From assembly GCA_948144175.1 (NCBI GenBank), contig CANXME010000106.1, forward strand, positions 868,001 to 932,000: a stretch of 64,000 nucleotides of DNA. Reading direction: 5' to 3'. This stretch comes from Closterium sp. NIES-65. Lineage: Eukaryota > Streptophyta > Zygnematophyceae > Desmidiales > Closteriaceae. How positions within the stretch are numbered: position 1 is the stretch's first letter; every line of letters begins with the position of its first letter. Of the stretch, positions 1,868-51,300 are shown one piece after another. The notes beneath the pieces were generated by a model. It made no database searches. It was given only the letters and a program-made list of their open reading frames with translations, and was not told where the DNA came from. Both the position numbers and the translations under genes were made by a program.

Positions 1868-1932
1868 TGGTATAGAGCGGGTTCCCTGTGGAACTCTGCC
1901 TAGGGCCCACCGAAGCGCGCCCCGAGGCGCGC
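1868..1932 (+). promoter_or_regulatory. Copia-A primer binding site and structured leader start
   Basis: The PBS TGGTATAGAGC (1868-1878) starts directly after the LTR. It resembles the plant tRNA-iMet site TGGTATCAGAGC with one base missing. Next comes a hairpin with arms GTTCC (1881-1885) and GGAAC (1890-1894) and a 4-base loop, then the palindrome GGGCCC (1903-1908), then a second hairpin with arms GCGCGCC (1915-1921) and GGCGCGC (1926-1932). The same order recurs in B, C, I and K. Roles in priming, dimerisation or packaging are inference. Confidence 0.75.
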
Positions 1933-2467
1933 TCAACTTTTTTTTTCCGCTATCGAGCGACCCTCCGTGTCGCCTCCCTCCCACACGCGGCCCAGCCGCC
2001 CGCTAAGTCGCGGCCCCAGCCGCCCACTACGATCGCGGCCCCAGCCGCCTGCTCGACGCGGCCCCCCCCCAGCCGCCTGCTCGACGCGGCCCCCAGCCGC
2101 CTGCTCGACGCGGCCCTGCCGCCCACTACGCCGCGGCTGCCGCCTACTACGACCGCGGCCCCGGCCGCCTGCTACGACCGCGGCCCCCAGCCGCCTGTTC
2201 GACCGCGGCCCCGCCGCCCGCTCCTGTCGCGGCCCCCAGCCGCCTGCTCGACGCAGCCCCCGGCCGCCTGCTCGACGCGGCCCTGCCGCCCGCTACGCCG
2301 CGGCCGCCGCCCACTACGATCGCGGCCCCGGCCGCCTGCTACGACCGCGGCCCCAGCCGCCTGTTCGAACCGCGGCCCCGCCGCCCGCTCCTGTCGCGGC
2401 CCCGGCTGCCTGCTCGCACGGCCTCGCCGCCCGCTACTACCGCGGCCCCGGCCGCCTGCTCGACCGC

Positions 2468-2500
<33 letters not shown>

Positions 2501-2781
2501 TACTACCGGGAGCCGAGCCGCCCTGCAGCCGAGCCGCCCGGGAGCCGAGCCGCCCTGCACCCGAGCCGCCCTGTCGCCGAGCCGCCCAGGAGCCGAGCCG
2601 CCCTGCCCCCGAGCTGCCCTACCGCCGAGCCGCCCGGGAGCCGAGCCGCCCTGCACCCGAGCCGCCAGGTCGCTGAGCCGCCTTTCTGCATACCTACTCG
2701 ACCTGCCCTGCCTGGTGAGCACAGTCCCACTGCCACTGCGAGCTCTTTCCCTACTACTTGCACTGCGTCGCTGTCGTCGCC
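1933..2781 (+). repeat. Copia-A GC-rich tandem-repeat leader
   Basis: This is an untranslated leader of about 850 bp made of imperfect short tandem units built on CGCGGCCCC and GCCGCCTGCT, changing to GAGCCGCCC units after 2510. A run of 31 C lies at 2470-2500. Long open frames cross it on both strands, but they encode only low-complexity Pro/Arg/Ala and are not credible genes. The last about 110 bp before the gag ATG closely resemble the same stretch of Copia-I. Confidence 0.85.
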
Positions 2782-5700
2782 ATGGCTACCCCTAGTGTCC
2801 TAGCTTTTGACGCTGAGGGTCGCGCCATTGATTTTGAGGTCTGGTTAAACGACCTGCAGCTGTTCTTACAGTGCGACAGGGCTGACGACCTTTCTCTCTT
2901 TGACCTCACCTCTGGCGCCTCTCCTGCTCCTGCTGCTGATGCTGATCCCGCTGTCCGCTCTAAGTGGGCCACCCGCGATGCTGCTGCACGTCTTGCTGTG
3001 CGTCGCCACCTCCCTACCTCTGAGCGTGCGCACTTTAGTCAGTACAAGAGTGCTCAGACCTTGTACGACGCTGTAGTTGCGCGCTACTCCTCCCCTGCCA
3101 CTGCTGCACTGAGCCGTCTCATGCTTCCCTACCTCTTTCCTGACCTCTCTGCCTTTCCCACTGCCGCTGACCTCATTACGCACCTCCGCACTAGTGACAC
3201 TCGCTACCCGCGCCGCCCTTCCTGCTGAGTTCTGCGCTAAGAACCCCCCCCCCATGTACATCGCTCTCTACTACGTAGTCGCACGCCTCCCTGACTCCCT
3301 TCGCGTCGTCAGGGACCACTTTCTCGCAGTCTGTCCCACCACTCTCACCGTCGACCTCCTCGAGAAGGCCCTCCTTGCAGCGGAGAAGAGCATAGTCGCT
3401 GTAGGTGCTTCTCGTGGTGACCCTCGCACCCCCATCTTTGAGGGGTGCTCTCCTTCCCCCTTGCTGCCCTCTGTTGCCTCTGCTGCTGCTGCCGACCTGC
3501 TTGGTCTTGAGTCGGTCGGCGCGGCGTCTGCCCCTAGTGGGAGACGTCGCTCCAGCAAGGGCAAGGGGGGCAAGGGCGCGGGTGGAGCTGGAGGGGGCGG
3601 TGGCGGTGGCGGCGGTGGCGGCGGAGGGAGTGGGGGTGGCGGCGGGGCTAGTGGCGGGGGTGGTGGTGGTGGTGGCGGCAGCAGCGGCGGAGACGGTGGT
3701 GGTGGTGCCAGCGGTGGTGGTGGAGGCAGCGGCGGAGGTGGAGGCGGCGGAGGTGGAGGCAGTGGAGGCGGCAGCGGAGGAGGCAGTAGTGGTGGAGGAG
3801 GTGGAGCTGGTCGGGGTGGTACCCAGCAGCGTAGCGGCGGTGGTGGTGGCCAGCGCTCGCACCGGCAGCAGCAGCAGCGCTCGCGGGACATCCCTTCGCC
3901 TCAGCAGCTTCGTGAGTGGTACGCTGGGCGTCAGAGGGGTGGGGGTACGGGTCCCTGCACCTACGTTCTTCGTTCCGGCGACCGCGCGGGTGAGCAGTGT
4001 GGGGGTGCCCACGCCACCCAGCGCTGCTTTGGCCGCCTGACGGACGCTTGGCGTCAGCAGTTCCCTGGGGCTAGTGAGATCCCTCGCTGGGATGAGCTTC
4101 TCAGGGCTGGTGTAGCGATCTTTGATCTTGATTTTGATGCTATCCTTACTGCTATGTATGTTGTGGATTATAGTGAGGAGAATGAGGGTTACCGGTGTTT
4201 TCAGCCCGACCCGGGCATTGGTACTGCTGCGCTAGGTGCTTGTGAGGCTGCTGCTCTAGGTGCCAGTGCGTCTGCGCTCTCAGGTACTGGTGAGACTGCG
4301 CTCTCAGGTACTGAGTCGTCCTCGTCCTCCCTCACTTTCACACTTGACTCCGGAGCTTCTCGCTCCTTCTTTCGAGACCGCACTACCCTTTCGCCGCTCG
4401 CCAGGCCGGTTGCGGTCTCCCTTGCTGACCCCTCTGGGGGTCCTGTCCTGTCTCACTTCTCCACTGTCCTCCCGTGTCCGGCTGCCCCTTCGGGCACCCT
4501 GTCGGGTCTGTACCTTCCCTCGTTCTCTACGAACTTGGTGAGTGGAGCGGACCTACAGGATGGGGGTGTTCACCAGTTCACTCCTGCGCGTCAGAGGGTG
4601 ACCCACTGCACGGAGGCTCGCACAGGCCGACACCTGGCCACGTTCTCACGTCGGCCGGGGTCGAGTCTCTACACCCTGACCGTTGAGTCTCCTCCTGTCC
4701 CTGCGTCTGGTCAGGTGGCTGCGTCGGGTCAGGTACTTGCTGCTGCGTCCCGGTCAGGTCCTGAGTCTGCCCCCTGTTCTTGTCGCCTCCTGTCTCACGA
4801 GACTCTCCTGTGGCACCACCGTCTTGGCCACCCCTCCTTGCCCCGTCTTCGGAGCATGGCTTCCCGTGTCCTTGTCTCTGGTCTTCCCCAGTCTCTCCCT
4901 CCTCTCCCCTCCGGGCCAGGACCTTCCTGTGTCCCCTGTGTCGAGGGTCGCCTCCGGGCTACTCCTCACTCCTCCCACTTCCCCCCGACAGAGGCTCCCC
5001 TGCAGACGCTTCACATGGATGTGTGGGGCCCAGCCCCCGTCCGTGGGCAGGGTTACGAGCGCTACTTCCTGTTGGTGGTTGACGACTACTCGCGTTACAC
5101 CACAGTCCTCCCCTTGCGCAGCAAGGGTGCGGTCACTGAGGTGCTGATCGACTGGATCCGCGAGGCTCGTCTCCAGCTCAGGAAGAGCTTCGGCTCGGAC
5201 TTTCCTGTTCTGCGTCTGCACTCTGACAGAGGCGGAGAGTTCTCTTCTCGCCTTCTGCGAGACTACTGTCGTGCACGGGGGATCCGCCAGACCTTCACGC
5301 TTCCGGACTCACCACAGCAAAATGGGATTGCTGAGCGCCGCATTGGCATGGTCATGGATGTCGCTCGTACGTCCATGATGCATGCGGCTGCCCCCCATTT
5401 TCTGTGGCCGTTTGCGGTGAGGTACGCGGCGCATCAGCTCAACCTTCACCCCCGGGTCTCTCGGCCTGCGATGTCCCCAGCCTTGCTGTGGACGGGGAAG
5501 GTTGGCGATGCGTCTGTGTTCCGTGTCTGGGGATCTCGGGCGTTTGTCCGCGACTTGTCTGCGGACAAGCTGTCCCCTCGTGCTGCTCCCTGTGTCTTCC
5601 TTGGCTTCCCCACTGACGCCCCAGGGTGGCAGTTTTACCACCCCTCCTCTCGTCGTGTTCTGTCCTCCCAGGACGTCACGTTCGACGAGTCAGTCCCCTT

Positions 5701-8689
5701 CTACCGTCTCTTCCCCTACCGCACTCCTTCCCTCCCCCCTCCCCCGGACTTCCTTGTGCCGGTTCCCCCCCCGGTAGACCCCCTCCCCCCTCAGGTTCCT
5801 GCCCCCTCAGGTGTGTCCCAGGTAGACGCCGTTGACCCGGTCGAGGTTACTGGTGACTCTGGTGCTGCTGCGGGTGCTGAGCCTGGGGGTGCTGACTCTG
5901 GGGGTGCTGTGCGCGGGGGTGCTGAGCCTGGGGGTGCTACTGCTGGGGGTGCTGGGCCTGAGGGTGCTACTGCGGAGGGTGCGGAGCCTGGGGGTGCTGA
6001 GCCGGGGGGTGCTGTGCCTGGAGGTGCTGGGTCTGGGGGTGCTGGGTCGGGAGCTGCTGAGCCTGGGGGTGCTGAGCTGGGAGCTGCTGAGCCTGGGGGT
6101 GCTGCGTCTGGAGCTGCTGAGCCTGGGGTTTCTCCTGCTGCTGCGTCTCGCCAGGAGCCCCTCTCTCCACAGGAGCTGCGCGAGTGGTTCGCTCGCCGCT
6201 GGAGGCGTGCTGCTGAGTCTGGAGGTGCTGCTGGAGCTGGAGCTGGAGCTTCTTCGACGCTCGGGGGTGCGGGTGCAGCCGGTCCCGGAGCTGCTGGCCC
6301 TGCAGGTCCTCCTGGAGCTGGAGCTGCTGAGGGCGTTCGTGCTGAGCCTGCTGCTGTTGGTCCTGCCGCTGGAGGTGTGGGTGGCGCTGGTGCTGTCGCT
6401 GAGGGTGCTGGTGCTGTCCCTGCTGAGTCTGTAGCTGCCGCGCGGCCTCGGCCGTACTTCGTTCCGCTCCTTCAGCAGGTTCTTGGTCTTTCTCCTCCAG
6501 TAGAGGGTCCACCGCCTGTCCAGTCGCAGCCCCTACTGGAGCCTTCCTCTCCGCTGCCTGCTCCCTCTCCTTACACTGGTCCTACTGGAGGTCTTGCTGA
6601 GCGTCGTGAGCCTGCGTCTCGTCCCGCGTCGCCTGTTCGTGCTGCTCGCGCTAGTGGTCGCAGTTCGCGTCAGCGTCCTCCTCCTGTCCCTGGCACGCAC
6701 CGGATGTCTCTGCGTCCGTCCACTGCTCCTCTGCGTGCCCCTTTGCCTTCTCCTCCTGAGTCCTCACTTCCTGCGCTTGCCGACCCTGAGTCGGACTCTC
6801 TTCGCGCTGCGAGTCCTACTGTCACGCGTCTGCTTGCTACTGTCGTCACTGACCCCTCTTTTGAGTCCACTGCTGCGTCTGCTCTAGTCGCTGAGCTCGT
6901 TGACTTTGCTGCTCGCTGTCGTCTCGACTACGCTGCTAGTCTTGTTGCTGAGTCTGCGTCTGTCTGTCCTCCGTCCGTCGGGGGTGAGTGTGCTCTTGGT
7001 ACGGACGTCCTAGAGGACAGACAGGAGGAGTTACAGTGTCTAGCGGCTGCTTCACCTCATCTCGCGTCTGTACTGCTTGCCCCTGAGGGAGACCCGGATG
7101 CACTAGACATCCCGACTCCGCGTTCTTACGCGGAGGCCGTAGAGGGTCCCTACTCCTCTCAGTGGCAGGCAGCTATGGATGCAGAGATGGCTTCCTGGAA
7201 GTCCACAGGCACCTACGTTGACGCGGTTCCCCCTCCTGGGGCGAACATCGTCAGTGGCATGTGGATCTTCAGGGTGAAGCGGCCGCCGGGCTCTCCACCT
7301 GTCTTCAAGGCACGGTACGTTGCTCGTGGCTTCAGTCAGCGGCAGGGAGTTGACTACTTTCAGACCTTCTCTCCCACCCCGAAGATGACTACTCTTCGGG
7401 TGCTGCTGCACATAGCCGCTCAGCGCGACTACGAGCTTCACTCTCTCGACTTCAGCACTGCGTTCTTGCAGGGTAGCCTGCACGAGGAGATCTGGCTTCG
7501 CCGTCCACCTGGCTTCACTGGGACTTTCCCTCCTGGCACCCAGTGGAGCCTCCGACGGCCAGTCTACGGTCTCCGCCAGGCACCGCGTGAGTGGCACGAC
7601 ACACTGAGGACTACGCTTGCGGCTCTTGGGTTTGCTCCTTCTACTGCTGACCCGTCGCTGTTTCTTCGCACCGACACTTCCCTGCCGCCGTTCTACATCC
7701 TCGTGTACGTCGACGACCTGGTCTTTGCCACAGCGGACACTGCTGGACTCGCCTACGTGAAGTCCGAGCTGTTGAAGAGACACACGTGCACAGACCTGGG
7801 TGAACTGCGCAGCTACCTTGGCTTGCAGATCACTCGGGACAGAGCACGCCGCACCATTACCTTGACTCAGTCACACATGGTGCAGCAGGTCCTTCAGCGC
7901 TTCGGCTTCACGTACTCCTCGCCTCAGGCCACTCCTCTGCCTACTCGCCACTCACTCTCAGCTCTGCCTTCGGATGAGTCCGTAGAGTCGAGTGGTCCGT
8001 ATGCGGAGCTTGTTGGCTGCCTCATGTACCTGATGACCTGCACACGACCTGACCTTGCATACCCTCTGAGCATTCTTGCACGCTATGTTGCTCCTGGGAG
8101 ACACAGACCGGAGCACATGGCTGCAGCGAAGAGGGTATTGCGCTACCTGTGCAGTACGTCAGGCATGGGGCTAGTGCTTGGAGGGCGGGGTCCAGTGGTC
8201 CTTACCGGCCACGCGGACGCGTCTTGGGCTGACGACCAGGCTACGCAGCGGTCGTCACAGGGTTACACCTTCAGCCTTGGTTCCGGCTCTGTCTCGTGGC
8301 GGTCTACTCGCTCGTCTTCGGTTCTCGGCTCCAGTTGTGAGGCTGAGATCTACGCCGGGGCCATGGCTGCACAGGAGCTTCGCTGGCTGACCTACCTGCT
8401 GACTGACCTTGGAGAGCCGCCTCGTTCTCCTCCAGTGCTGTACGTAGACAACAAGGCTATGCTGGCCTTGTGTCGAGAGCAGCGCTTGGAGCACAGAACG
8501 AAGCACATTGCTCTCCGCTACTTCCTTGCTCGTGAGCTGCAGCAGCGTGGTCAGTTGCGACTTGCGTACGTGGCCTCTGAGGCCAACACTGCTGATGTGT
8601 TCACCAAGGCACTTGCGCCTTGTGACCATCAGCGCTTCTGCACCCAGCTGGGTCTTGTGCCTGTCTTGCCTCACTTGCTCTCCTCTTGA
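2782..8689 (+). pseudogene. gag-pol: Copia-A gag-pol polyprotein, one frameshift in gag
   Basis: The start at 2782 (context GCCATGG) matches the start of the intact Copia-I protein. Gag is open to about 3207, where a C-tract (3207-3209) has one extra base relative to copies I and C; the frame then continues open from 3194 to 8689. Numbering that second frame from 3194: Gly-rich tract about 130-215, Cys/His motif C-x13-C-x3-H-x4-C, protease DSGA at 385, integrase D609, D678 and E714 (D-x35-E), a PGGAE-repeat linker about 890-980, RT YVDD at 1505-1508, then RNase H. All catalytic motifs are intact. A programmed frameshift is possible but unlikely, because Copia-I needs none. A sequencing error in the C-tract cannot be excluded. 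Confidence 0.9.
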
Positions 8690-8791
8690 CTTCACTTGTA
8701 CTGTGACATATATATATACCTGCTCTTGCTTGTCTAGCTTTATATATATGTCTGTACTCTTGCTTGTGAACTGGCCTTTGGCCTTGCCCTT

Positions 8792-8833
8792 GTGCTCGGA
8801 CTGTGTGGTGACTTTGTGATCCACCCTGAGCTT
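8792..8833 (+). promoter_or_regulatory. Copia-A conserved 3'-UTR block
   Basis: This untranslated block (TGTGGTGACTTTGTGATCC followed by ACCCTGAGCTT) lies about 100 bases after the pol stop. It recurs almost unchanged in eight elements of this window, including non-autonomous E. Flanking 3'-UTR sequence such as the TATATA-rich stretch 8708-8750 varies more. Its function is unknown; a cis-acting RNA role is inferred from conservation. Confidence 0.7.
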
Positions 8834-8885
8834 TGCTTTGTCTTGCTTGACTGGTCTTGTGACCCCTTGTTCTCCCCCACTTTGC

Positions 8886-8896
8886 CTATGGGGGTG
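8886..8896 (+). promoter_or_regulatory. Copia-A polypurine tract
   Basis: CTATGGGGGTG lies directly before the 3' LTR, where the plus-strand primer is expected. The same sequence precedes the 3' LTRs of B, C, D, E, I and J. Confidence 0.85.
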
Positions 8897-9032
8897 TGTC
8901 AGAACATACCTATAGCTTATACTGCTGTGTAGGCTGTAGTGGGGTATCCCATAGGGGGTACAACCCAGTTAGGGTTTCATATTTGTACTGCTTTCATTCA
9001 TAGTTCATTCATCCCTGCTTACTCATTTCACA
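8897..9032 (+). repeat. Copia-A 3' LTR
   Basis: 136 bp with no difference seen from the 5' LTR at 1732-1867. It is followed by the GCTGC target duplication and then the Gypsy-1 protease frame. Confidence 0.95.
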
Positions 9033-10014: not shown

Positions 10015-10797
10015 TGTCAGAATATTATAGCTTACTTATTTGTGTAGGCTATAGTGGGGTATCCCATAGGGGGTACAACCCAACTAGGGTTTCCTATTTG
10101 TACTCACTTCGTTCATAGTTCACTCAATTTCTCTCGTTCACTTCTTCTCATGGTATCGAGCAGGTTCCCCTGTGGGAACTTTGCTTAGGGCCCACCACTT
10201 CGGAAAACTTTTTTTTCTGCCCTAGCGCCCTAGCGCCCACCCTTGCGCCCGCCCTAGCGCCCTAACGCCCGCCCTAGCGCTAGCCCTAGCGCCCGGCGCC
10301 TGCCCTAGCGCCCGTGAGCCGCCCGCGGCCTGCCCGTGAGCCGCCGCCCACGGCCTGCCCTAGCGCCCGTGAGCCGCTCGCGGCCTACCCGTGAGCCGCC
10401 CGCGGCCTGCCCGTGAGCCGCCGCCCGTGAGCGCCGCCCGTCAGCCGCCGCCCGTAAGCAGCCGCCCGTCAGACGCCGCCCGTGCGCCTCCGCCCGTGAG
10501 CCGCCGCCCATGAGCCGCCCACCCGCGCGCCGCCCGACCGTGAGCCGGCGCCGCCCGTGAGCCGCCCACCCGTGCGCCACCAGCCCGCCCGTGAGCCGCT
10601 GGCGCCGCCCGTGCGCCGCCCGTCCGTGAGCCGCCCGCCCGTGCGCCGCCCGTCCGCGAGCCACCCACCCGCCCGTGCGCCGCTCGCGCCGCCCGTGCAC
10701 AGCCCGCGAGCCGCTCGCGAGCAGCCCGCAAGCCGCCCCAGCTGCCCGTGCAGCCGCCCGTGAGCCGCCCCAGCCGCCCGTGAGCCGCCCGCGCGCC
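10015..10797 (+). mobile_element. Fragment K: truncated copia element (5' LTR plus leader only)
   Basis: A 136-bp LTR (10015-10150, TGTCAGAAT to TTCTCA) is followed by a PBS-like TGGTATCGAGC (10151) and a repeat leader of CGTGAGCCGCCCGC-type units ending at about 10797. There is no coding region, no 3' LTR and no target duplication. About 8 bases of Gypsy-1 gag present in Gypsy-2 at the same place (near 37924) are missing, so a deletion probably removed the rest of the element with a little of the host. The LTR is close to that of Copia-J. Confidence 0.85.
10151..10193 (+). promoter_or_regulatory. Fragment K PBS, hairpin and GGGCCC
   Basis: After the PBS comes a hairpin with arms GTTCCC (10164-10169) and GGGAAC (10174-10179) and loop CTGT, then GGGCCC (10188-10193). 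Order and spacing match A, B and C. Confidence 0.7.
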
Positions 10798-12900: not shown

Positions 12901-13024
12901 TGTGAAAGTTTAGAAGAGAGAAGAGAGTTTGACTAGCAGTAGTTGGGATACATATAGCAAACCCTAACAGGGTTGTACTCGCTATAGAGCACCCCACTAC
13001 AGGCTAGATAAGAACATTCTGACA
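12901..13024 (-). repeat. Element E 3' LTR
   Basis: 124 bp, plus-strand start TGTGAAAG and end CTGACA. On the minus strand it has TTAGGGTTTG (telo-box like) and the family core GTAGTGGGGTG. Confidence 0.9.
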
Positions 13025-13120
13025 CACCCCCATAGCCAAAGTGGGGTGTAATCAGCAGAGCAAGCAAGCATAGAACAAGCTCAGGGTGGATCACAATGTC
13101 ACCACACATTCTGAGCACAA
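13025..13120 (-). promoter_or_regulatory. Element E PPT and conserved 3'-UTR block
   Basis: The PPT complement CACCCCCATAG starts at 13025. The conserved block lies at 13078-13120 on the minus strand (TGTGGTGACATTGTGATCC, then ACCCTGAGCTT). Its retention in an element without genes argues for a cis role. Confidence 0.75.
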
Positions 13121-13149
13121 GTACAAGAAGCAACAGTTTAAAAGTTCAC

Positions 13150-14370
13150 AATTATGAGCAAAGCTAGAGCTAATCACAGCGGACAAGTGAGTAGGAGGAG
13201 GAGTTGTGGGGGAGAGAAGATGGGAGGCGACTGCTGACACCGCAGACAAACAGACGAGCTACTGGCTCAGTGGCTACCGGAACAGCGCTCCGGACTACTG
13301 GAGTAACTGGCCCCGCGGCTAATAGTAGCGGCAGACGAGCAACGGACCCACGGGCGACTGGCAACTACCGGAGATTGTAGCCTCCGGACTGCTGCTGCTG
13401 CTGACGACAAGACTGCTGCTTCCACTCAACCTCCCCCCACTGCCCCACACTCTCGGCACACGCCCACTGCTCAAACCCTAGCTCCACTCACACGCACCCC
13501 CCTTAAACCCTAAACCCCAGTCTCCCACTCATCCACCCCCCTCAGCGACAGCTGCAGCAGTGGGAGACGAACGAGGAGGAGGAGCAAAGGGAGGAATGCA
13601 CAACTGCCACCCCCATACTCGCCACCCCCTACTCGCCACCCCCCAAACCCTAACACTGGCAGGGCGGGATGGCGGGTAGGGAGGTTACGGGGGAGGGGGG
13701 GGGGGGGGGGGGGACCGACGCGCGGCCTCCAAGGGCGCCAAAACAGGCGGCAGAAGGGGCAGCGCTCGCCCCCACCCCCACGTCGCCCCTCCCGTCCACG
13801 GGAAAAGGGGGGGGGAGGGGGGGGGGGGGGGGGGGGGGGGCGGTGCACGTGCCCCCTGGTGCGCCGCGGCTGACGACGAGGCATGGCCGGGGCGGGGCCA
13901 GGGCCGCAAGTGGCGGCGACGGGGCTGCTGGCGGCGACGACGGGGCCGATGCGGGCGGGGAAGGGGTCGCTGCGGGCGGCGACGGGGCCCCTTTGCGCGG
14001 TGACGGGGCCGCTGCGGGCGGCAACGGGCCGATGTGGGCGGCGACGGGGCCGCTGCGCGCGGCGACGGGGCCGCTGCGGGTGGCGACGTGGACGACGCGC
14101 GGGTCCCCGTCGCCCGTCGCAGCGTCTCCCGAGGGCGACGCGCCGAGTGACGGGGCAGAAGCCCGCCGCGCGCCTCGGGGCGCACAGCGGGCAGAGAACC
14201 GCCGCGCGCCTCGGGGCGCACGGCGGGCAGAAAACCGCCGCGCGCCTCGGGGCGCACGGCGGGAAGAAAAAAACAGCCGCACGCCACGGGGCGTGCGGCA
14301 CAGAGAGTAGCAGTAGCATTTGCAGCGGAAGCAACGAGGTGGTGAGCCCACCCACAGGATCGATCCAAGG
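13150..14370 (-). repeat. Element E leader and low-complexity interior
   Basis: A G/C-rich interior with G-runs at about 13688-13713 and 13806-13842. GGCGACGGGGCCGCTGCG-like units fill about 13900-14090, and a roughly 36-bp tandem unit (GCGCGCCTCGGGGCGCAC core) is repeated about four times at 14157-14275. No credible gene. Confidence 0.8.
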
Positions 14371-14392
14371 GGATCGACCTGCTCTGATACCA
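14345..14392 (-). promoter_or_regulatory. Element E PBS and adjacent hairpin
   Basis: On the minus strand TGGTATCAGAGC directly follows the LTR. Then comes a hairpin with arms of 7 bases (plus strand TCGATCC 14360-14366 and GGATCGA 14371-14377) and a 4-base loop. It occupies the same place as the GTTCCC/GGGAAC hairpin of other copies although its sequence is different. The later palindrome is degenerate (GGGCTC). Confidence 0.75.
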
Positions 14393-14516
14393 TGCGAAAG
14401 TTTAGAAGAGAGAAGAGAGTTTGACTAGTAGTAGTTGGGATACATATAGCAAACCCTAACAGGGTTGTACTCGCTATAGAGCACCCCACTACAGGCTAGA
14501 TAAGAACATTCTGACA
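14393..14516 (-). repeat. Element E 5' LTR
   Basis: 124 bp, nearly identical to 12901-13024; followed by the ATAGC target duplication. Confidence 0.9.
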
Positions 14517-16563: not shown

Positions 16564-16689
16564 TGTCCAACTTATATGCTATAGTCCGTGTAGGCTGTAG
16601 TGGGGTAGATAATATGGGGTACAACACTTTTAGGTTTTCCTACTTGTACCCACTCGTTTCCTAGTGCATTCATTCCTCGTTCTTTCACA
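16564..16689 (+). repeat. Copia-B 5' LTR
   Basis: 126 bp, TGTCCAACTT to CTTTCACA. It carries the family core GTAGGCTGTAGTGGGGTA and a degenerate telo-box (TTTTAGGTTTT). Confidence 0.95.
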
Positions 16690-16732: not shown

Positions 16733-16739
16733 ACCAAAA

Positions 16740-30258: not shown

Positions 30259-30263
30259 GATCT

Positions 30264-30439: not shown

Positions 30440-30459
30440 ACTGAACTTTTTTTTCCTGC

Positions 30460-36410: not shown

Positions 36411-36542
36411 TGTCAGAACATATATAGCTTATACTTTTGTGTAGGCTATAGTGGGGTATCCCATAGGGGGTACAACCCAATTAGGGTTAGTACTTGTACC
36501 AAGTTCATTCATAGTTCATTCATTCTCGTTCATATTTTCTCA
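36411..36542 (+). repeat. Copia-C 3' LTR
   Basis: 132 bp; three differences from the 5' LTR, all in CTTGTACCAAG against CTTTTAACCAG. Confidence 0.95.
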
Positions 36543-36547
36543 GATCT

Positions 36548-38722
36548 AGTGCTCGTGGGTGCGTGCAGCAGGTACGCCTGCAGGAAGGTCGTCGTGCATT
36601 ATATCCTTGTACTACTCCAGGACCTCTTTCACTGCTGCAGGTAGTTCTGCGTTCGGCTTCTCCTCCTCGGCCGCTGCCATAACCAGTGCTAGATATCCCG
36701 TGTTTCTCTCGTTCACCATTTGTTCAAATCGTGCAAGTGTCGTTTCAGGAACGTCTCCTGTATCCGTCCAGCTTCGTAGTGCTATCCGCTTCCCGTTGTT
36801 GTAGATGCACACCTTCATGTTGACCCAGTCGATCTCGGGGTTGAACCGCTTCAAGAAATCTCGCCCCAAGATGAAATCTAACCCTTTGATGTTTGTGATC
36901 GGCAATGTTGGCTTCCACCTTAGCGCCCCTATGTGCAGCTGCAGTGATGCTTCGCCATAGATAGGAAGTTTCGTACCGTCCACCATTGTTGCCGAGAACT
37001 TGGTCTCCTCGGAAGGTTCCCCAATTTTCTCCAACGTCCTGCGGTCACGTACTGAGTGAGATGCACCGCTGTCTGCCAGTGCCTGGAGGCGTCGTCCTTT
37101 GCATAACACCTCGAGGAATAGTGGCGCCTACTGCACTGAGTAGCCAAAGAGGATCTCATTAATAGGATCATAGGGTACATCAAAGTGAATACCGTCCCTA
37201 TTTCCTATACCTGACTCAACACTTTTTTCTTCTAACTTCACCTGGGGGATAGGAGGATTTTTCCGAGGCTTGTACAACTTCTCATGTGCCTGGAATTTTC
37301 CTCTAAGCCTTGGCAGCTGTGTAGGCTTCACCCGTGGGCAATGGGGAGCCTTAACACTGGGTTGCGGGGAGAGAATATTAACTCCACGGAACGCACGACC
37401 CTTTTCTACGCTCCGTAGTACTTTGCCCAACTTCCCAGGTACCTGAATAATTTCTTAAGGCATTTTCTTGGCCTCTAAATCTCCCCCGAATTTCTGAAAG
37501 GCTTGAAAACCACGAGAAGCAATATTCTTCGTTAGAGTATCTTTATAGGATACTTTTAATGAATTCTTACTTTCGTGGGTGTTCGGCTGGAGTTTCCCGG
37601 TCGGTGCAGAGTCTTTTTTCACGGAGCCTCCATTCGCCTCGGCGATTTCCCCTGATGCTAGCCGGTCGTGATGTTTTAGATTCGGGCCATCATTTTCTCC
37701 TTTCTTCACCCGCTCCGAAGTCGCCACGTCGTCGCCTTTTCCTGGTTTTCGGGTCTTTGCACGATCGCGAGGTCGATCCGCGGCTACTGGCGATTACCGT
37801 TTTTTTACTTCATGGGTGCTCCACTGTTACCGCCCTGCAGTGTCACGCGTGCCTTTTTCATTTTGTAGCACGACAAAAACGGATGCCCTGCTGCGCCGCA
37901 AAACTCGCATTTTGTCGGCTGCTGCTTCACGTCGTATTTGTCGATGTCCATCGGTTCGGCGACCGTGGGGGGTGCCGATCGCTCCGTGTCGAATATACGG
38001 TTCGTCATGAAGCGTCATGTTTCGGGTTGACCACGACTCAATGCGTCGTATCGCTTGGCATCACGCACGATGTCGCCGTAACTGTTGTAATTCGCTGCGA
38101 TGACCTGTCGACGAATCTCCAATTTTAACCCTTCTGTGTACGCATGGATTTTTTCGCCTTCGGTCAGGTCGGTGATGCGATTGAACAGGAGCTCCATCTA
38201 CTGCGTGTGCTGTGCTACACTACTATATGGCTTATGCCGATGAATCTGATGCCGCGCCATGTAGGTCGTATTAAACTGCTGCCACGTTTTCTCCCCGCGG
38301 GCCACGTCAGTGTAATAAATCCATTCGAGTGCCGGTCCACTTAACAGCGTCGCTGCGAGCCAAATTCTTGCTGCGTCATGTGTCGGGGTCGAACAGCCAA
38401 TGGCCTCGAAGTATATTTCAAGGGTTGCCACGAATCGTCGGACGTCGGATTTATTTGTGTTGGGATCGAACGCTTCAGGGAGCCTCGGTCCTGCTGCTTC
38501 GAGGTTCGGCGACAGTGGTGCCATCGGTCCGTGAAATGTCGGTGTCGCCACTGCTGCGGGTGTTGTCGTTGCTACGTTCGCTGCTGCTGCGGTGGTGATT
38601 CCTGGTTGGTGTGTCGGAAGGGCCTCGAGTCGTCGTAGCGCCGCCTGCGTCTGCTCCATGTCGGTGCGGAGGCTCGCGATGTCACTCGTGGTCGCATAGT
38701 TGTCGCCTTCCATGCCTGACAT
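36548..38722 (-). pseudogene. gag-pol: Gypsy-2 gag and protease (broken)
   Basis: Gag starts at 38722 (MSGMEGD). It has a coiled-coil-like N-terminus (LRTDMEQTQAALRRLEAL), a capsid region and a CCHC zinc knuckle (C-x2-C-x4-H-x4-C near 37870-37920). A 33-bp in-frame deletion near 38274 removes residues that Gypsy-1 keeps. A CAG-TAG run gives a stop at about 38198. Gag ends at a TAA (37805-37807) that overlaps the slippery heptamer. The protease (SGASHSV, catalytic D present as ADSG) lies near 37060-37080. Confidence 0.9.
37799..37807 (-). promoter_or_regulatory. Gypsy-2 slippery heptamer with overlapping stop
   Basis: The A AAA AAC heptamer (37799-37805) is kept, but the preceding codon TCA of Gypsy-1 and Gypsy-3 is TAA here (C to A), placing a stop at the slip site. 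Confidence 0.65.
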
Positions 38723-38880
38723 TGCGCATCTGAAAAACCGAAACGAGGGGGAGCGAAAAACACGGAACCGGTTTTACGTACCCGAAATTGATGTTTAACT
38801 GCGTCGCCTCCGCGGTTTTTTGAAGACTCAGTTTTAGCGGTCAAAAAACTTTCGCGTGTAAACGGCTCTGATTACCAAGT
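38723..38880 (-). promoter_or_regulatory. Gypsy-2 5' UTR and primer binding site
   Basis: Next to the 5' LTR the minus strand reads TGGTAATCAGAGCC, the tRNA-iMet PBS with one extra A (38865-38878). About 140 bp of leader precede gag, with no repeats, unlike the copia leaders. Confidence 0.75.
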
Positions 38881-39248
38881 GTGAGGATCTAGGATCGAGC
38901 TCAAAAAAGAGAGTTTGAATTAAATGAATCACCTGGATACAAAATGAGGCTATATATAGGCTCGACACAAGGCATAGTAACCAGGTGTTACGCGAAGGTT
39001 CTGAGGGTCGAGAAGCGTCCCGAACAGACCCTTCCCGAATTCGGTAGAAGGCTATTCGGTGTCAACCGAAAAGCCAGAATTCGGAGCACACAACCTTAGC
39101 TCGGTGCTATAACTATAATAAAGTATAGGAAAGCACCTAGCCTAGGAAATCAAGCAATTCATGCATGCATATAATTATCCTATGCTAGAAATAGCATATA
39201 AAGTAAAGGCAAGCAAGCATAGCTGGCAGAAGCCGTCGTACTCTCACT
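38880..39248 (-). repeat. Gypsy-2 5' LTR
   Basis: About 369 bp, matching 27132-27501 with scattered substitutions. The outer base is altered (plus-strand end ...CTCACT), after which GGGCT follows. Confidence 0.92.
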
Positions 39249-42226: not shown

Positions 42227-42924
42227 CGTATTGCCTAGTCAGCAGCTCCCTGGTTTCCCCTAATCACCTAGCTATGCTAGGCGCGACCTACGCTAGCTAG
42301 AAAGTGTCGAGGGAATTGTGTGTAGGGAAGCTAGAGTGGTTGGGTTGGGTAACATTTGTCACCAACCACCACAAAAGGACAAACCAGGTTGGAAAACGTT
42401 TCAACCCTCACATTGGTTGGAATTCCAACCAACCAGAATTGAGCAGCATTGTTGTTACACCTTATCTTGCAATTGTGTGCAGGTGATCAATGTTCATTGG
42501 TTTATAATATTTCTTTGCCACCTAAGCAACCCCACCTTTGGAGCTCCTCCACCTTGTGGCCATGGAGGAGGAGAAGCTCCCCAAGGAGGTATTGGAAGGG
42601 GTCTGAGCGAGGAGCTCATTCTTGGCATTCCAACTTCCAACAACCCAATATTGGAAATGGGATTTTGCCTAAGTCTTTGCTATTCCCCTCACAACTCTAG
42701 CAAGCCTAGCTCTCACATGTGAAAGTTCTCCAACCAAGGGTTTTCTTAGCTGAGACTCTACTTCTGCTACTACGAGCTTCTACTTAAGAGCTCCACACCA
42801 TCAGCAAAGTGACTATTGATTACGAGGAGTATTTGCGTGTAATTTCAAGATCTTGGACTGCAACTTTATAAACTCTGTTATTTTAAGCCTGCAGCCCGTT
42901 GCTTATAAGGGCAAGGTTGTTACA
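42222..42924 (+). repeat. Gypsy-4 3' LTR
   Basis: 703 bp from TGTAACGTA to GTTGTTACA, with inverted ends TGTAAC/GTTACA. It directly follows the PPT TGGAGGGGGAGGAG. The pol stop TAA lies within its first bases. No partner LTR is in the window, so the limits rest on the terminal repeat, the PPT and resumption of Copia-H. No other gene in it. Confidence 0.8.
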
Positions 42925-45900
42925 GTAGGTGAGCCAGCAAAGCTCCTGTGCAACCATGGCCCCGGCGTAGATCTCAGCCTCACAACTAGAGCCGAGAACA
43001 GAAGACGAGCGAGTAGCCCGCCACGAGACAGAGCCGGAACCAAGACTGAAGGTGTAACCCTGTGACGACCGCTGTGTAGCCTGGTCGTCAGCCCAGGAAG
43101 CGTCTGCGTGCCCAGTGAGGACCACTGGACTGCGCCCTCCAAGCACTAGCCCCATGCTCGACGTACTGCACAAGTAGCGCAACACCCTCTTCGCTGCAGC
43201 CATGTGCTCTGGTCGGTGTCTCCCAGGAGCAACATAGCGTGCGAGAATGCTAAGAGGGTATGCAAGGTCAGGTCGAGTGCAGGTCATCAAGTACATGAGG
43301 CAGCCAACAAGCTCTAAATACGGGCCACTCGACTCTACGGACTCATCCGAAGGCAGAGCTGAGAGTGAGTGGCGAGTAGGCAGAGGAGTGGCCTGAGGCA
43401 AGGAGTACGTGAAGCCGAAGCGCTGAAGGACCAACTGCACCATATGTGACTGAGTCAGGGTAATGGTGCGGCGAGCTCTGTCCCAGGTGATCTGCAAGTC
43501 AAGGTAGCTGCGCAGTTCACCCAGGTCTGTGCGCGTGTGTCTCTTCTGCAGCTCGGACTTCACGTAGGCGAGTCCAGCAGTGTCAGCAGTGGCAAAGACC
43601 AAGTCGTCGACGTACACGAGGATGTAGAAAGGCGGTAGAGAAGTGTCGGTGCGCAGAAACAGCGACGGGTCGGCAGTAGAAGGAGCAAACCCAAGAGCCG
43701 CAAGTGTAGTCCTCTGTGTGTCGTGCCACTCACGTGGCGCCTGGCGGAGACCGTAGACTGGACGCCGGAGACTCCACTGAGTACCAGGAGGGAACAACCC
43801 AGTGAAGCCAGGTGGGCGACGCAGCCAGATCTCCTCGTGCAGGCTGCCCTGCAAGAAAGCCGTGCTGAAGTCGAGAGAGTGCAGCTCGTAGTCACGGTGA
43901 GCAGCAACGTGCACTAGTACCCGAAGAGTGGTCATCTTCGGGGTCGGAGAGAAGGTCTGAAAGTAGTCAACTCCCTGCCGCTGACTGAAGCCACGAGCCA
44001 CGTACCGCGCCTTGAAGACAAGCGGAGAACCCGGCGGCCGCTTCACCCTGAAAATCCACATGCCACTGACGATGTTCGCCACAGAAGGGGGGACAGCGTC
44101 AACGTAGGTGCCTGTGGACTTCCAGGAAGCCATCTCTGCATCCATAGCTGCCTGCCACTGAGAAGAGTAGGCACCCTCTATCGCCTCCGCGTAAGAGCAC
44201 GGAGTTGGGATGTCAAGTGCATCCGGGTCTCCCTCAGGGGTAAGCAGTACGGACCCGAGATTAGGTGAAGCAGTGGCCAGGCACTGGAACTCCTCCTGCC
44301 TGTCCTCAAGGACGTCCGTGCCAAGGGCACACTCAACCCCGACGGACGGAGGACAGACAGACTCAGACTCAGCAACAAGACTAGCGGCGTAGTCAAGGCG
44401 ACAGCGAGTAGCAAAGTCGACGAGCTCAGTGACTAGGGCAGATGCAGCAGTGGACTCGAAAGAAGGGTCAGTGACGTTAGTAGCAAGGAGATGTGTGACA
44501 GTAGGACTGGCAGCACGAAGAGAGTCCGACTCCGGGTCGGCAAGAGTAGGAAGAGAGGACGCATGAAGAGAAGGCAAAGGGGCACGCAGAGGAGCAGTGG
44601 ACGGACGCAGAGACATCTGGTGCGTGCCAGGGACAGGAGGAGGACGCTGACGCGAACCGCGACCACTAGTGCGAGCAGCACAAACAGGCGACGCAAGACG
44701 AGACGCAGGCTCACGACGCTCAGCACGACCTCTAGTAGGACAAGTGTAGGGAGAGGGAGCAGGTAGTGGGGAGGCACGCTCTAACTGTAGCTGTGACGGG
44801 ACAGGCTGTGGACACTCTAAAGAAGGAGGAGGACCTGTAGAAGGTGGAAGACCAAGAACCTGCTGCAGGAGTGGAACAAAGTACGGTCGAGGCCGCGCGG
44901 CGACGCCAGACACAGCAGGGACAGCACCAGCACCCCGAGCAGGAGCACCAGCTCCACCAGCATCTCCAGCAGCACCAGTAGTACCCCCAACAGGACCGCG
45001 AGCAGTAGGCTCAGCACCAACGCCCGCAGCAGCACCAGCTCCAGTCGAACCCGCAGACCCAGCAGCTCCAGTACTCCCAGTACGAGCACCTCCGGGACCC
45101 GCGGGACCAGCACCCTCAGCAGCAGAAGAACCTCTAGCTCCAGCAGCACGCCTCCAGCGCCGGGCAAACCACTCGCGCAGCTCCGGTGGAGAGAGTGGCT
45201 CCCGGCGAGACGAAGCCCCCGGAGGACCTCCAGGCGCAGGACCTCCAGGCTCAGCACCCTCAGGCTCAGCACCACCAGGCTCAGCACCTCCAGGCTCAGC
45301 ACCCCCAGGCGCAGCACCCTCTGTCGCAGCACCCCCAGGCTCAGCACCCCCAGGCTCAGCACCCCCAGTCACAGCACCCCCAGGCTCAGCACCCCCAGGC
45401 TCAGCACCCCCAGGCACAGCACCCCCAGGCTCAGCACCCCCAGTCTCAGCATCCCCAGGCTCAGTACCCTCAGCAGCACCAGAGTCACCAGTAACCTCGA
45501 CAGGCTCGACCGCGTCCACCTGGGACACACCTGAAAGGGCAGGACCCTGAGGGGGGAGGGGGTCTACCGGGGGGGGACCAGGGACAAGGAAGAGCGGGGG
45601 CGGGGGTAGGGACGGAGTGCGGTAGGGGAAGAGGCGGTAGTATGGGACCGACTCGTCAAACATGACGTCCTGGGAGGACAGAACACGGCGAGAGGTGGGG
45701 TGGTAGAACTGCCACCCTGGCGCGTCAGGGGGGAACCCCAGGAAGACGCAAGGAGCAGCACGAGGGGACAGCTTGTCCGCAGACAAGTCGCGGACAAACG
45801 CCCGAGATCCCCAGACCCGGAACGCCGACGCATCGCCAACCTTCCCCGTCCACAGCAAGGCTGGGGAGGTCTCGAGCCTGGAGACCCTGGGGTGGAGGTT

Positions 45901-47186
45901 GATCTGATGCGCCGCGTACCTCACTGCAAACGGCCACAGAAAATGGGGGGCAGCCACATGCATCATGGACGTACGAGCGACGTCCATGACCATGCCAATG
46001 CGGCGCTCAGTGATCCCATTTTGCTGCGGAGAGTCCGGAAGTGTGAAGGTCTGACGGATGCCTCATGCGCGACAGAATGCTCTCAGAAGGCCAGAGGAAA
46101 ACTCTCCGCCTCTGTCCGAGTGCAGACGCAGAACAAGAAAGTCCGAGCCAAAGCTCTGCCTGAGCTGGAGACGAGCTGCGCGGATCCAGTCAATCAGCAC
46201 CTCAGTGACATCACCCTTGCTGCGCAAGGGGAAGACTGCGGTGTAACGCGAGTAGTCGTCAACAACAAGCAGGAAGTAGCGCTCGTGACCCTGTCCACGG
46301 ACGCGGGCTGGGCCCCACACGTCCATGTGAAGCGTCTACAGCGGGGCCTCTGTCAGAGGCAACTGGGAGGAGTGAGGGGCAGCCCTCTGGCGCCCCTCGA
46401 CACAGGGGACACAGGAAGGGCCAGGCCCTTGAGAAAGGGGAGGCAGGGACCTGGGGAGACCAGAAACAAGAAGACGAGAGGCCATGCCTCTGAGCCGAAG
46501 CAGAGAGGGGTGACCAAGGCGGTGGTGCCAGAGGAGAGTCTCGTGAGAGAGGAGACGACACGAATAGGCAGACTCGGGACCAGACCTGGACGCTGCAGCA
46601 AACACCTGACCTGACGCAGACACCCTACCAGACTCAGCAACTGGAGGAGACGCAGTGGTCAGTGTGTACACGCTCGACCCCGGCTGACGGGTAAACGTAG
46701 CCAGGTGTCGGCCTGTGCTAGCCTCTGTACAGTGCGTCACTCGCTGACGCGCAGGAGTGAACTGGTGGACTCCCCCATCCTGTAGGTCAGCACCACTCAC
46801 CAAGTTCGTAGAGAACGAGGAGAGGTAGAGACTAGACAGGGTACCAGAGGGAGCCGCCGGACACGGGAGGATTGTGGAGAAGTGAGACAAGACAGGACCC
46901 CAAGAGGGGTAAGCCAGAGACACAGCAACCGGCCGACTGAGCGGCGTGAGTGTGGTGCGGTCCAGAAAGAAGGAGCGAGAAGCTCCAGAGTCAAGGGTGA
47001 AGGTGAGGGAGGCCGAAGCCGACGCGGTACCTCAGAGCGCAGACTCACCAGTACCTGAGGACGCAGACGCACTAGCACCTAGAGCAGCAGCGTCGCAAGC
47101 ACCTAGGGCAGCAGCCGCACCAGTACCTAGAGCAGCAGTCTCAATGCCCGGGTCGGGCGGGAAACACCGGTAACAGTCACCCTCAT
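42925..47186 (-). pseudogene. gag-pol: Copia-H gag end to RNase H (broken, both ends lost)
   Basis: Minus-strand copia of the main superfamily. The frame is open from about 45993 down to 42930 (integrase end, PGGAE linker about 45230-45480, RT with YVDD near 43600, RNase H cut after CWLTY). Upstream lie the integrase core (MDVWGP, HSDRGGEF near 46090-46326), HHRLGH and protease (LDSGAS near 46990). Stops: CGA to TGA at about 46063, CAG to TAG at about 46333, TCA to TGA near 47034. Gypsy-3 cuts gag at 47187 and Gypsy-4 cuts RNase H at 42924. Confidence 0.9.
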
Positions 47187-47598: not shown

Positions 47599-50500
47599 TC
47601 AAAGCTGGGTGGTAGAAGTAACACCCTGCTTGACAAGGTAGTCCTGTAGAGGACGGCGGGCGTTATCCATGTCATGTTTAGGTACCCAGGTATCCTCGGA
47701 AGGATCATAGCCTTTCCAACGAATCAAGAGCTCCAAGGCGCCGCTACGTCGTCGTCGGCGCGCCAGAACGACTTCGACTTCGTACTCGGGTTCCCCATTA
47801 ACAATCACTGGCAGTGGCGGCGGCGGCTGGCGACCTTTGAAGACCGTGTTTGGGTCCCGATAGGGCTTGAGAAGTTGAACATGGAAGGCATTGTGAATTC
47901 TCCAGGTAGCTGGTAAACGCAAACGGAAGGTTACTGGAGTGACCTGCGCCTCGACGAGAAAAGGTCCGCAGAAGCGAGGTCGGAGCTTAGACGGAAGATG
48001 GCTAATGTCGAGATTGCGTGTATCCAGAAGAACTTGATCGCCACTCTTGATGGAATGATCATTGCGACTCCGATCAGCGAGCTTCTTTTGTTGTTGCTGG
48101 ATAGTCAGAAGACGTTTATGCGTGCGCTCCCACAATTGGTGCATAGTGGAAATGAAGTCATGTGCGGGTTGTACCGTGGCGGGTACTGTTGGTTTCTGAG
48201 GCGTGAGTGGGTTGCGACCGTAACAGAGGAAAAAAGGAGTTTGCCCTGTTGCGGCGTGCGTGGCGTTGTTATACGCAAACTCGAGAACCGGCAGATGTGC
48301 ATCCCATTTAGAGATATCGTCCTTACACGCTGCTCGCAGAAGCTGTTCGACAATCTGGTTGAGGCGCTCTATCTGACCATCCGTTTGGGGATGATAGGCT
48401 GATGACATGGCGAGTTTGGTCCCCATGAGCGACATGAGCTCCTTCCAGAATTTACTCGTGAATTTCGGGTCTCTGTCGGAGATCAGCGTGGTTGGAATGC
48501 CATGTTGCGAGATGACGTAGCGGAAGAATATTTGCGCTGTCTCCTCGACGCGAGCCGTTGTGTGTGTCGGAATGAAGTGTCCCATTTTGGAGAATTTGTT
48601 GATGACGACTATAATGGCGTCGTAACCAGCTTTGGTAGGTGGTAACCCGGTGATGAAGTCGAGGCTAATCACTTGCCAAGGCTGTTCAGGGACTGGAAGA
48701 GGCTGTAGTAATCCTGCTTTCTTCTGTTTGCTGCTCTTCATCCGTTGGCATGTGTCGCATGAGGTGACGAAGTTTTGTACGTCATCCGCCATGTGGGGCC
48801 AATAATAATGCTTCGCAATACCGGCAAGCGTCTTGTTACTACCGAAATGGCCCGCGTAGAGAACATCATGATATTCTTCGAGCAGTAACTGGCGTAAGGG
48901 AGGGTAATTAGGTACCCATATTTTTGTTGAGCCCTTGCGGTATGCGATGTTTTGATCCCATTGTAGAAGATGGCGCTTTTCTGCTACAGAGACTTCGGGG
49001 TCGATGGTGTATCCATGCGTGAAGAGTCCCTTCAAAAGTGGGTTGATGCCATCGATTTGTAAGGCGGCAACGTGTGCAGGGCGACTCAGTGCGTCTGCCT
49101 TGTTCTTGTGCCCCGGCTTATACACGATGTCGTAATGGAAGTGGGTTTCGAGAAAGTCAATCCACCGGACCTGCCGCCTGGAGAGTGTTGGTTGGGTCTT
49201 CAGATACTTGAGGCTGCAGTGGTCGGTGTAGACAGTCGTTTTTCTTCCTTCGAGATAACACCTCCATGCCTTAAATGCGTTGACGATGGCGAGGGCCTCT
49301 TTGTCATGGATGGGGTAATTGAGTTCTGCCCCGTGAAGTTTTTTACTGAGGTATGCAATGGGTTGCAGTCCCTTCCCTTGATCCTGCATGAGTACTGCGC
49401 CCACTGCTTGATCGCTAGCATCGGCCTCGATGACATAGTCAAGTTCAGTGTCTGGCAGGATAAGAACAGGTGCGGACGTGAGTGCGGTTTTAAGTTGTTC
49501 CACGGCTTCCTGGTGCTTTGCCTCCCATTGATATGGTGTATTCTTCTTCAACAGGTTCGTTAATGGTGCGGCAATCTTGGCGTAGTTCGGTACGAACCGG
49601 TTGTAGTAGTTGGCGAATCCAAGGAACTGTTGTAACTCCTTCACGTTCTCAGGGGTCTTCCACGTTCGCACTGCTTCGATCTTCTTAGGATCCACGTGAA
49701 CTCCTTGAGCGCTCACCATATGTCCAAGGAACTGGACTTTTTTCAACGCAAACTCGCTCTTGGATAGTTTCACGTAGAAGCGTTCTCGTCGAAGAATTTC
49801 AAACACCCGTCGTAGATGCTCAACGTGCTGCTTCATATCTTTCGAGTAGATCAGGATATCGTCCAAATATACCACCACGCACTCGTCCAGAAGGGGCCGA
49901 AGGATGTGGTTCATTTCCGCCTGAAATGTGGCTGGTGCGTTAGTGAGTCCGAATGGCATCACGAGATACTCGAATGACCCGTACCGAGTTCGAAAAGCGG
50001 TTTTGTGGATAGAGTTGTCCGCCATACGAATTTGCCAGTATCCCGATCTGAGGTCGAGCTTGGAGAATACCGTAGCACCGCGAAGTTGATCGAGTAAGTC
50101 GTCGATCCGTGGTATCGGGTATTTAGTTTTTACAGTCTGCTTGTTCAAGGCTCGGTAGTCGATGCACATTCGCAGACTTCCGTCTGGCTTCGGAGTGAAG
50201 AGAACTGGAGCTCCGTACGGCGAAGTCGAAGGTCGAATCAGCCCTTTCTCCAGGAGATACTCTATTTGTTTTTTCATATCGGCAAGCTCTGTCGGGCTCA
50301 GCCGGTATGGTGCTCGAAATGTTGGCTTGGACCCCGGCTCTTCTACGATCTCGTGTTGATGTGTCCGGTATGGCGGTAGTTGATCAGGTAAATCGTCGAG
50401 GAGAACGTCCTGGAACTCTTCAAGAATTTTCTTGGCTGCTGGAGGAAGTTCCTGGGTCTGCTTCTCTCCGTTGTCTGCCTCGTTGACTATCGCCATGAAT

Positions 50501-51072
50501 CCCGCCGTGGTCCGTTTGACGTCCTTTTCAAAGCGTGCGAGTGTCTCGACTGGAATATTTCCCGTGTCGTCCCATTTGGGAAGGCTGGTTTTCCTCCCGT
50601 TGTTGTTGATGTTGGCCGTCTGGTTAACCCAGTTGATCTCGGGGTTGAACTTTTTAAGAAAGTCTCTCCCAAAGATTACGTCGAGTCCTTTGATATTTGT
50701 GACGGGGAGAGCAGGCTTCCATCGAAGGGGTCCAATCAGGAGTAGCAACCGTGTTTCCCCGTAGATAGGTAGCTTACTGCCATCCACCATCGTTGCAGAG
50801 AAGCTTGAGGACTTGATGTCACCTCCGAGTCGATCGATTGCCTTTTTGTCATAGACGCTGTGCGACGCCCCGCTGTCCACGAGTGCTTGGAGGCGCTGTC
50901 CGTTGCAGATCACCTCGAGCAGGAGTGGTGAGCGTTGCTCGGAGTACCCAAAAATAGTCTCATTAATAGGATCATAGGGTACATCCCAATATTCAGTACA
51001 CACCGTGGTTCCACTGCTTTCTTCTGGACAACTAGCTGGCCGGGGCTGCGTGGAGAAAGGCTCTTCTCCAAT
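47599..51072 (-). CDS. pol: Gypsy-3 pol: protease, RT, RNase H, integrase, chromodomain
   Basis: Uninterrupted minus frame from the Copia-I junction to TGA at 47599-47601. Protease LVDSGAS has its Asp at 50875-50877. RT has LVMPFG and YLDD (Tyr at 49867-49869). RNase H shows [11 protein letters not shown] and [10 protein letters not shown]. Integrase has the zinc finger [18 protein letters not shown] and core motifs [20 protein letters not shown] and TDGQIERLN with all three acids. A C-terminal chromodomain ([27 protein letters not shown]) is present. The upstream end of the frame runs into the antisense of the Copia-I LTR, so a Met at 51177 is not real; the true N-terminus is in 58548-59190. 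Confidence 0.93.
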
Positions 51073-51203
51073 TGTCAGATTATTATAGCTGATGCATGTT
51101 TGTAGGCTATAGTGGGGTAGCTCATATGGGGTACAGCTCTCTAGGGTTGTATTTGTACCCAACTCTGACTTAGTCATTTCATTCCTGTTTTCCTTGCTTC
51201 ACA
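51073..51203 (+). repeat. Copia-I 5' LTR
   Basis: 131 bp, TGTCAGATTATTATAGC to GCTTCACA. It has the family core (GTAGGCTATAGTGGGGTA, ATATGGGGTACA) and TCTAGGGTTG. It is identical to 58412-58542. Confidence 0.97.
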
Positions 51204-51300
51204 TGGTATAGAGCGGGTCCTGCCTTTGGACCGTTTTTTTTTTAGGGCCCACCGAAGCGCGCCCCGAGGCGCGCCTTTTTTTAGCGACCCCTCGGGTCGC
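51204..51300 (+). promoter_or_regulatory. Copia-I PBS and structured leader start
   Basis: PBS TGGTATAGAGCGGG; hairpin with arms GGTCC (51216-51220) and GGACC (51228-51232); T-tract; GGGCCC (51245-51250); hairpin GCGCGCC/GGCGCGC (51257-51263 and 51268-51274, loop CCGA); hairpin GCGACCC/GGGTCGC (51284-51290 and 51294-51300). The first hairpin has a different sequence from those of A, B, C and K but the same position. Confidence 0.78.

Follow-up and report, generated by a model that had tools for sequence, protein, structure and literature searches.

A hairpin placed directly beside a primer-binding site (PBS) raises the question of whether the two act together and what part the primer takes in it. 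The question arises here from a window of 64,000 nucleotides of Closterium sp. NIES-65 (GenBank assembly GCA_948144175.1, contig CANXME010000106.1, positions 868,001 to 932,000, forward strand), in which six retrotransposon leaders, designated A, K, B, C, I and E, carry an inverted repeat next to the PBS. The initial annotation described a hairpin with arms that change together, and proposed that it might regulate annealing of the transfer RNA (tRNA) primer. What our analysis points to is a site where the primer would dock at two points, and not a hairpin demonstrated by covariation.

Judged by their sequences, the six leaders belong to Ty1/copia elements with short long terminal repeats (LTRs), primed by initiator tRNA-Met (tRNA-iMet). 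Self-comparison of the 64-kb window showed that each PBS directly adjoins a short LTR (~124–136 bp, ending in CA). LTR pairs with TG..CA termini were present in A, B, C, I and E, with LTR–LTR identities of 100% (A and I), 98.4% (E), 97.7% (C) and 95% (B), and with 5-bp target duplications (GCTGC in A, ATGTT in B, GATCT in C, CCAAT in I and GCTAT in E). For K, the same self-comparison gave a 5′ LTR and no 3′ LTR. The PBS, complementary to the 3′ end of the tRNA-iMet that we assumed, was intact at 12 nt (TGGTATCAGAGC) in C (30396–30407, after the 5′ LTR at 30264–30395) and in E (14381–14392, minus strand, after the 5′ LTR at 14393–14516); all leaders except E lie on the plus strand. The remaining four PBSs had a one-base deletion. 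The 11-nt TGGTATAGAGC was found in A (1868–1878, directly after the 5′ LTR at 1732–1867), B (16690–16700, after the LTR at about 16564–16689) and I (51204–51214, after the LTR at 51073–51203), and TGGTATCGAGC in K (10151–10161, after the LTR at about 10015–10150). We also observed that the missing base fell at adjacent positions, giving TATAGAGC or TATCGAGC versus TATCAGAGC, and that A and I have the deletion despite their identical LTR pairs.

A copia-type reverse transcriptase (RVT_2, 3.5e-45) was located in the open reading frame at 42883–46062, and the bodies of A and I, with ~87% aligned identity to the element that carries it, were assigned to copia by this homology. A piece of the reverse transcriptase region of C, used as a query, returned 7637 protein matches; the best 120 of them were all Closterium-named (NIES-53, 54, 64, 65 and Yama58-4), many at >90% identity and nearly all with PF07727, which makes a zygnematophycean alga of this genus the most likely source of the window. 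E spans 12901–14516 on the minus strand. At 1.6 kb it is too short for a copia polyprotein and is therefore presumably a short non-autonomous relative; its polypurine tract is similar to those of A, C and I.

Beyond the 11–12-nt PBS, the leader sequence resembles the reverse complement of tRNA-iMet. In E, the leader past the PBS runs through the antisense T arm, variable loop, anticodon arm and D arm in unchanged order, with a few insertions and deletions. It includes (minus strand) CCTGTGGG at 14351–14358, complementary to the variable loop and the 3′ anticodon stem, GGGCTCACC at 14341–14349, predicted to pair with tRNA bases 26–34 with one G-U wobble, and GCTTCCGCTGC at 14322–14332, complementary to the D arm. 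The second of these segments, hereafter box 2, recurs in all the leaders, 24–31 nt past the PBS. It reads GGGCCCACC, complementary to tRNA-iMet bases 26–34, in A (1903–1911), K (10188–10196, where the match reaches 11 nt with the following AC), B (16727–16735) and I (51245–51253), and GGGCCCAC, also complementary to tRNA-iMet, in C (30434–30441). Within the window, this second complementarity was restricted to the leaders. The 10-nt block TAGGGCCCAC occurred five times in 64 kb, always in the leaders of A, K, B, C and I (0.17 expected; none of 100 shuffles reached five), and GGGCCCACC four times, always in those of A, K, B and I (1.34 expected; 4 of 100 shuffles reached four). Moreover, TAGGGCCCAC was one of two 10-column invariant runs, the longest in the alignment of LTR plus 60 nt of leader from A, K, B, C and I. 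ARAGORN read the comparison tRNA as tRNA-Met with anticodon CAT and detected no tRNA gene in the 64-kb window, which means that box 2 does not belong to one there.

The strength of the resemblance differed among the leaders. In local alignment to the antisense tRNA-iMet, E scored 45, with a best score of 32 in 1000 shuffles; the whole-length signal of the other leaders was weaker, and their scores were reached by 97 (A), 2 (K), 19 (B), 30 (C) and 37 (I) of 1000 shuffles. In the anchored alignment, the score of E (45) was reached by none of 2000 shuffles (best 26) and at none of 5000 random window places, and the corresponding counts for A, K, B, C and I were 4, 1, 57, 8 and 17 shuffles, and 10, 2, 469, 9 and 96 places. 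The length of the longest word shared with the antisense tRNA was reached by 46 (A), 1 (K), 4 (B), 117 (C), 11 (I) and 6 (E) of 2000 shuffles.

Such a trace brings in the main rival explanation, namely that reverse transcriptase once overran its usual stop, continued into the tRNA and left an antisense copy that was fixed in the leader, box 2 and the hairpin being functionless remnants by descent. The trace in E extends over most of the tRNA, the D arm included, and keeps the order of its parts, which is more than docking would need, and by eye the 3′ arm of its hairpin resembles the T arm in sense orientation, an outcome that strand switching might produce. However, the 10-nt block stayed invariant in A, K, B, C and I, while the spacer between hairpin and block mostly changed and the LTRs of these five diverged to pairwise identities of 67–86% (46% of columns invariant). 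We consider it rather unlikely that the leaders are fossils and nothing else. With regard to origin, the boxes are probably remnants of a captured reverse-transcribed tRNA copy, of which E would hold the fullest trace. A tentative extension treats the leader as a functioning imprint of the tRNA: read-through would have produced a full antisense copy, which E retained and which the autonomous elements reduced to two boxes joined by the hairpin. Such a leader could represent an intermediate between whole-tRNA and half-tRNA priming.

The reading that we favour, with moderate confidence, is functional: a split primer-binding site in which the hairpin would serve as a spacer between the PBS and a box for the anticodon arm. 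The 3′ end of tRNA-iMet would dock on the PBS, and the 5′ strand of its anticodon arm (bases 26–34, which in this model have to read GGUGGGCCC or pair equally well) would dock on box 2. The hairpin between them would absorb the slack of the leader and lie opposite the tRNA's own T arm, so that the complex would be a four-way junction. In particles, this pairing may help to select the primer or to start from it. Co-folding of A, B and I with the tRNA predicted a PBS duplex, the leader hairpin, box 2 on the anticodon arm and a T arm that was still folded; forcing the hairpin cost 0 in these three, meaning that the hairpin complex is the predicted optimum there. With the hairpin forced, box 2 of all six leaders was predicted to pair with linear tRNA bases 25–33 (standard numbering 26–34), and masking box 2 deprived the predicted complex of 8.8–14.2 kcal/mol. 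When leaders were shuffled with the PBS kept, predicted binding as strong as that of the real leader was reached by 4 (A), 5 (K) and none (B, C, I and E) of 100.

Several points weigh against the split primer-binding site. In C, E and K the hairpin junction is less stable than the predicted optimum, by 5.0, 2.4 and 1.5 kcal/mol, respectively, and in K just seven PBS bases stay paired to the tRNA once the hairpin is forced. The co-folds are predictions only and used an unmodified tRNA, which we take to be the land-plant form of tRNA-iMet and which may differ from that of Closterium itself. Four of the six PBSs (A, B, K and I) are one base short. In the anchored test B performed poorly, its score being equalled at 469 of 5000 random places; A was weak in the local test (97 of 1000 shuffles), and the exact word of C was the weakest (117 of 2000 shuffles). 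We must also note that the leaders are related, so the six copies are not six tests, and A, K, B, C and I may count once.

The position of box 2 on the tRNA also admits the explanation that it is a present or former second PBS for a tRNA-iMet half cut in the anticodon stem. The same tRNA region is involved in the half tRNA-Met PBSs reported for Osser, Bryco and part of the Gymco-II plant copia elements (PMC6317226). Nevertheless, box 2 does not adjoin the LTR, the PBS that does so matches the tRNA 3′ end, and the complementarity is patchy beyond base 34, so the 3′ end of a tRNA half would be poorly paired. We regard a half-tRNA site as very improbable.

The conserved block also contains GGGCCC, which is present in five of the six leaders. 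Palindromes are used in retroviral RNA dimerisation, and this perfect palindrome might join two genomic RNAs, with the hairpin as the neighbouring packaging stem. For the Ty1 RNA dimer, a role of the palindromes PAL1 and PAL2 has been proposed (PMC5454406). However, the conserved block includes a TA ahead of the palindrome and an AC behind it, and E has GGGCTC, in which the pairing with the tRNA is retained through wobble. Folds of the six leaders alone show the palindrome in no common loop, and the D-arm match of E would be left unexplained. A dimerisation signal is thus an improbable reading, and we return to the split primer-binding site and its spacer.

All six inverted repeats of the initial annotation were exactly in place when the sequence was re-read. 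They are GTTCC-CTGT-GGAAC in A (1881–1894), GTTCCC-CTGT-GGGAAC in K (10164–10179), GTTCCC-TAGT-GGGAAC in B (16703–16718), GTTCCC-TCGT-GGGAAC in C (30410–30425), GGTCC-TGCCTTT-GGACC in I (51216–51232) and TCGATCC-CCTT-GGATCGA in E (14360–14377, minus strand), the last with CAGG/CCTG flanks that resemble the antisense T stem. At random window places, a perfect arm with a loop of 3–8 and an offset of 0–3 occurred at frequencies of 0.030, 0.010 and 0.004 for arms of at least 5, at least 6 and at least 7 bp, respectively, and the observed arm was matched by 134 (A), 59 (K), 35 (B), 43 (C), 135 (I) and 6 (E) of 3000 shuffled leaders. A single hairpin of 5–7 bp is not rare in itself; a hairpin beside the PBS recurs beyond chance expectation, and chance is an unlikely explanation for its recurrence at the same place with three or more different arm sequences. 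We give no joint probability for this recurrence, as the copies are related. None of 20 chance PBS 16-mers in viral contigs had an arm of at least 5 bp, which is a soft control because several of the 16-mers are near-duplicates and most, by eye, have a lower G+C content than the leaders. When 60 nt of each leader were folded alone, 44 (A), 13 (K), 23 (B), 9 (C), 83 (I) and 1 (E) of 100 shuffles were as stable. The predicted folding energy of the lone leader is thus unremarkable in all but E, which speaks against a strong structure. The Rfam gathering scan of the window returned no match.

The covariation attributed to the arms did not hold up. K, B and C share identical arms, and A equals K minus one C-G pair. 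In the alignments, I and E have distinct hairpins in a shifted register and are not column-wise variants of those in K, B and C. Scored on structure-neutral alignments, which comprise few related sequences and have little power, the five leaders A, K, B, C and I had one of six pairs changed on both sides, equalled by 209 of 500 shuffles; with E added, there was again one doubly changed pair, equalled by 235 of 500 shuffles. Covariation is therefore unsupported, because the arms of three of six leaders are identical and the single doubly changed pair is matched by shuffles. The proposed link between hairpin and primer annealing is supported, through a feature absent from the initial annotation, namely the second tRNA-complementary stretch just past the hairpin; covariation as a sign of selection is not.

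The leaders appear to have been exchanged between elements. A (1732–9032) and I (51073–58542) have bodies that are 97% identical and LTRs that are only 67% identical, and each LTR pair is identical within its element, which suggests that recombination has joined similar bodies to different LTR-leader units. Both of these units carry the hairpin and box 2.

Exact leader patterns had no match in genome contigs; in viral contigs they gave either no match or 20 chance-like matches without an arm of at least 5 bp, box 2 or a T run. A pattern search for related loci matched three stretches, with none confirmed, and the protein search with the leader peptide of C yielded no candidate. With the leader peptide of E, 2 of 17 candidates, both predicted proteins of Closterium NIES-53 with weak E-values (0.23 and 2.3), contained QVDPLGSILWVG, the translation of the E hairpin as far as the beginning of box 2. 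Leaders of the E type may therefore recur, although the peptides do not give the exact bases. We also observed that the LTR-PBS junction forms an ATG (CATGGTATCAGAG) in C (30394–30396) and E (14392–14394), with a frame that runs through the hairpin. Two Closterium gene models read the frame of E at the ATG junction, with altered residues in the PBS part.

Other features were seen in and around the leaders. Runs of 7–10 T, a U tract in RNA, are found in all six no further than about 130 nt from the PBS, at 1938–1946, 10209–10216, 16745–16754, 30447–30454, 51234–51243 and 51276–51282 (plus strand) and 14267–14273 (minus strand); they make up seven of the nine runs of at least seven T on both window strands. 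A second GC-rich hairpin was noted by eye between box 2 and a T run, with the sequence GCGCGCC-CCGA-GGCGCGC in A (1915–1932) and I (51257–51274) and a 10-bp stem in E (14276–14299, minus strand). A probable gypsy element, with C nested inside, occupies 27132–39247 on the minus strand, bounded by LTR-like repeats at 38880–39247 and 27132–27500, and has a PBS-like TGGTAATCAGAGCC at 38877 (minus strand). Its leader had no box 2 in the stretch read, which serves as an informal contrast.

If the split primer-binding site is real, a 3′-end PBS combined with an anticodon-arm box would be a possible intermediate for a copia switch between whole-tRNA and half-tRNA priming, and the leaders would offer a case, open to test, of how copia lineages change primer type. 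A second contact, on the anticodon arm, in algae related to the land plants would make such docking a more widespread phenomenon with more than one geometry, and the antisense-tRNA trace of E would indicate a direct route by which such docking sites originate.

Extended primer contacts are known in retroviruses, and in HIV-1 the primer activation signal and other parts of the leader contact the tRNA primer outside the PBS. The Closterium leaders would resemble it in touching the primer tRNA at a second point besides the PBS, whereas the tRNA and the arm differ and HIV-1 is a retrovirus; we claim a likeness without a sequence relation. In the open-licence text covered, which does not extend to single-element studies such as those on Tos17 and Jatropha, we found no description of an anticodon-arm box or a PBS-adjacent hairpin in copia leaders, and none stands in the accessible parts of PMC5454406, PMC4974528, PMC4247016, PMC5371799, PMC6317226 and PMC10886601. 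The letters of the tRNA sequence had no match in the literature text searched.

Boxes 0 and 1 of Ty1, which are important for initiation, form pairs with the T or D hairpins of tRNA-iMet (PMC5454406, PMC4974528). Ty1 and the Closterium elements are alike in being Ty1/copia elements with a tRNA-iMet primer and short boxes past the PBS that are complementary to internal segments of the primer and are separated by leader RNA. Further complementarity past the PBS was found in the Closterium leaders, strongest in E and with B alone weak in the anchored test. However, the boxes of Ty1 target the T and D hairpins, whereas the box shared by the Closterium leaders fits the anticodon arm; clear T- and D-arm matches occur in E, which has an antisense trace of nearly tRNA length, unlike Ty1. 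Moreover, the Ty1 PBS lies within GAG and its interaction is backed by mutants, whereas the Closterium PBS abuts the LTR and its interaction is inferred. In Ty5 and Drosophila copia, priming starts from the anticodon region of tRNA-iMet (PMC5371799, PMC10886601), and Osser and Bryco are predicted to use this region via half-tRNA-Met PBSs (PMC6317226). These elements share with the Closterium leaders a complementarity to the anticodon region, but there it constitutes the PBS, whereas in Closterium it is a second site behind a 3′-end PBS. A classification of the Closterium elements as half-tRNA-primed copia was rejected, the LTR-adjacent PBS fitting the tRNA 3′ end. The Closterium leaders would thus work like Ty1, with the contact placed in the region that Ty5 and Drosophila copia use.

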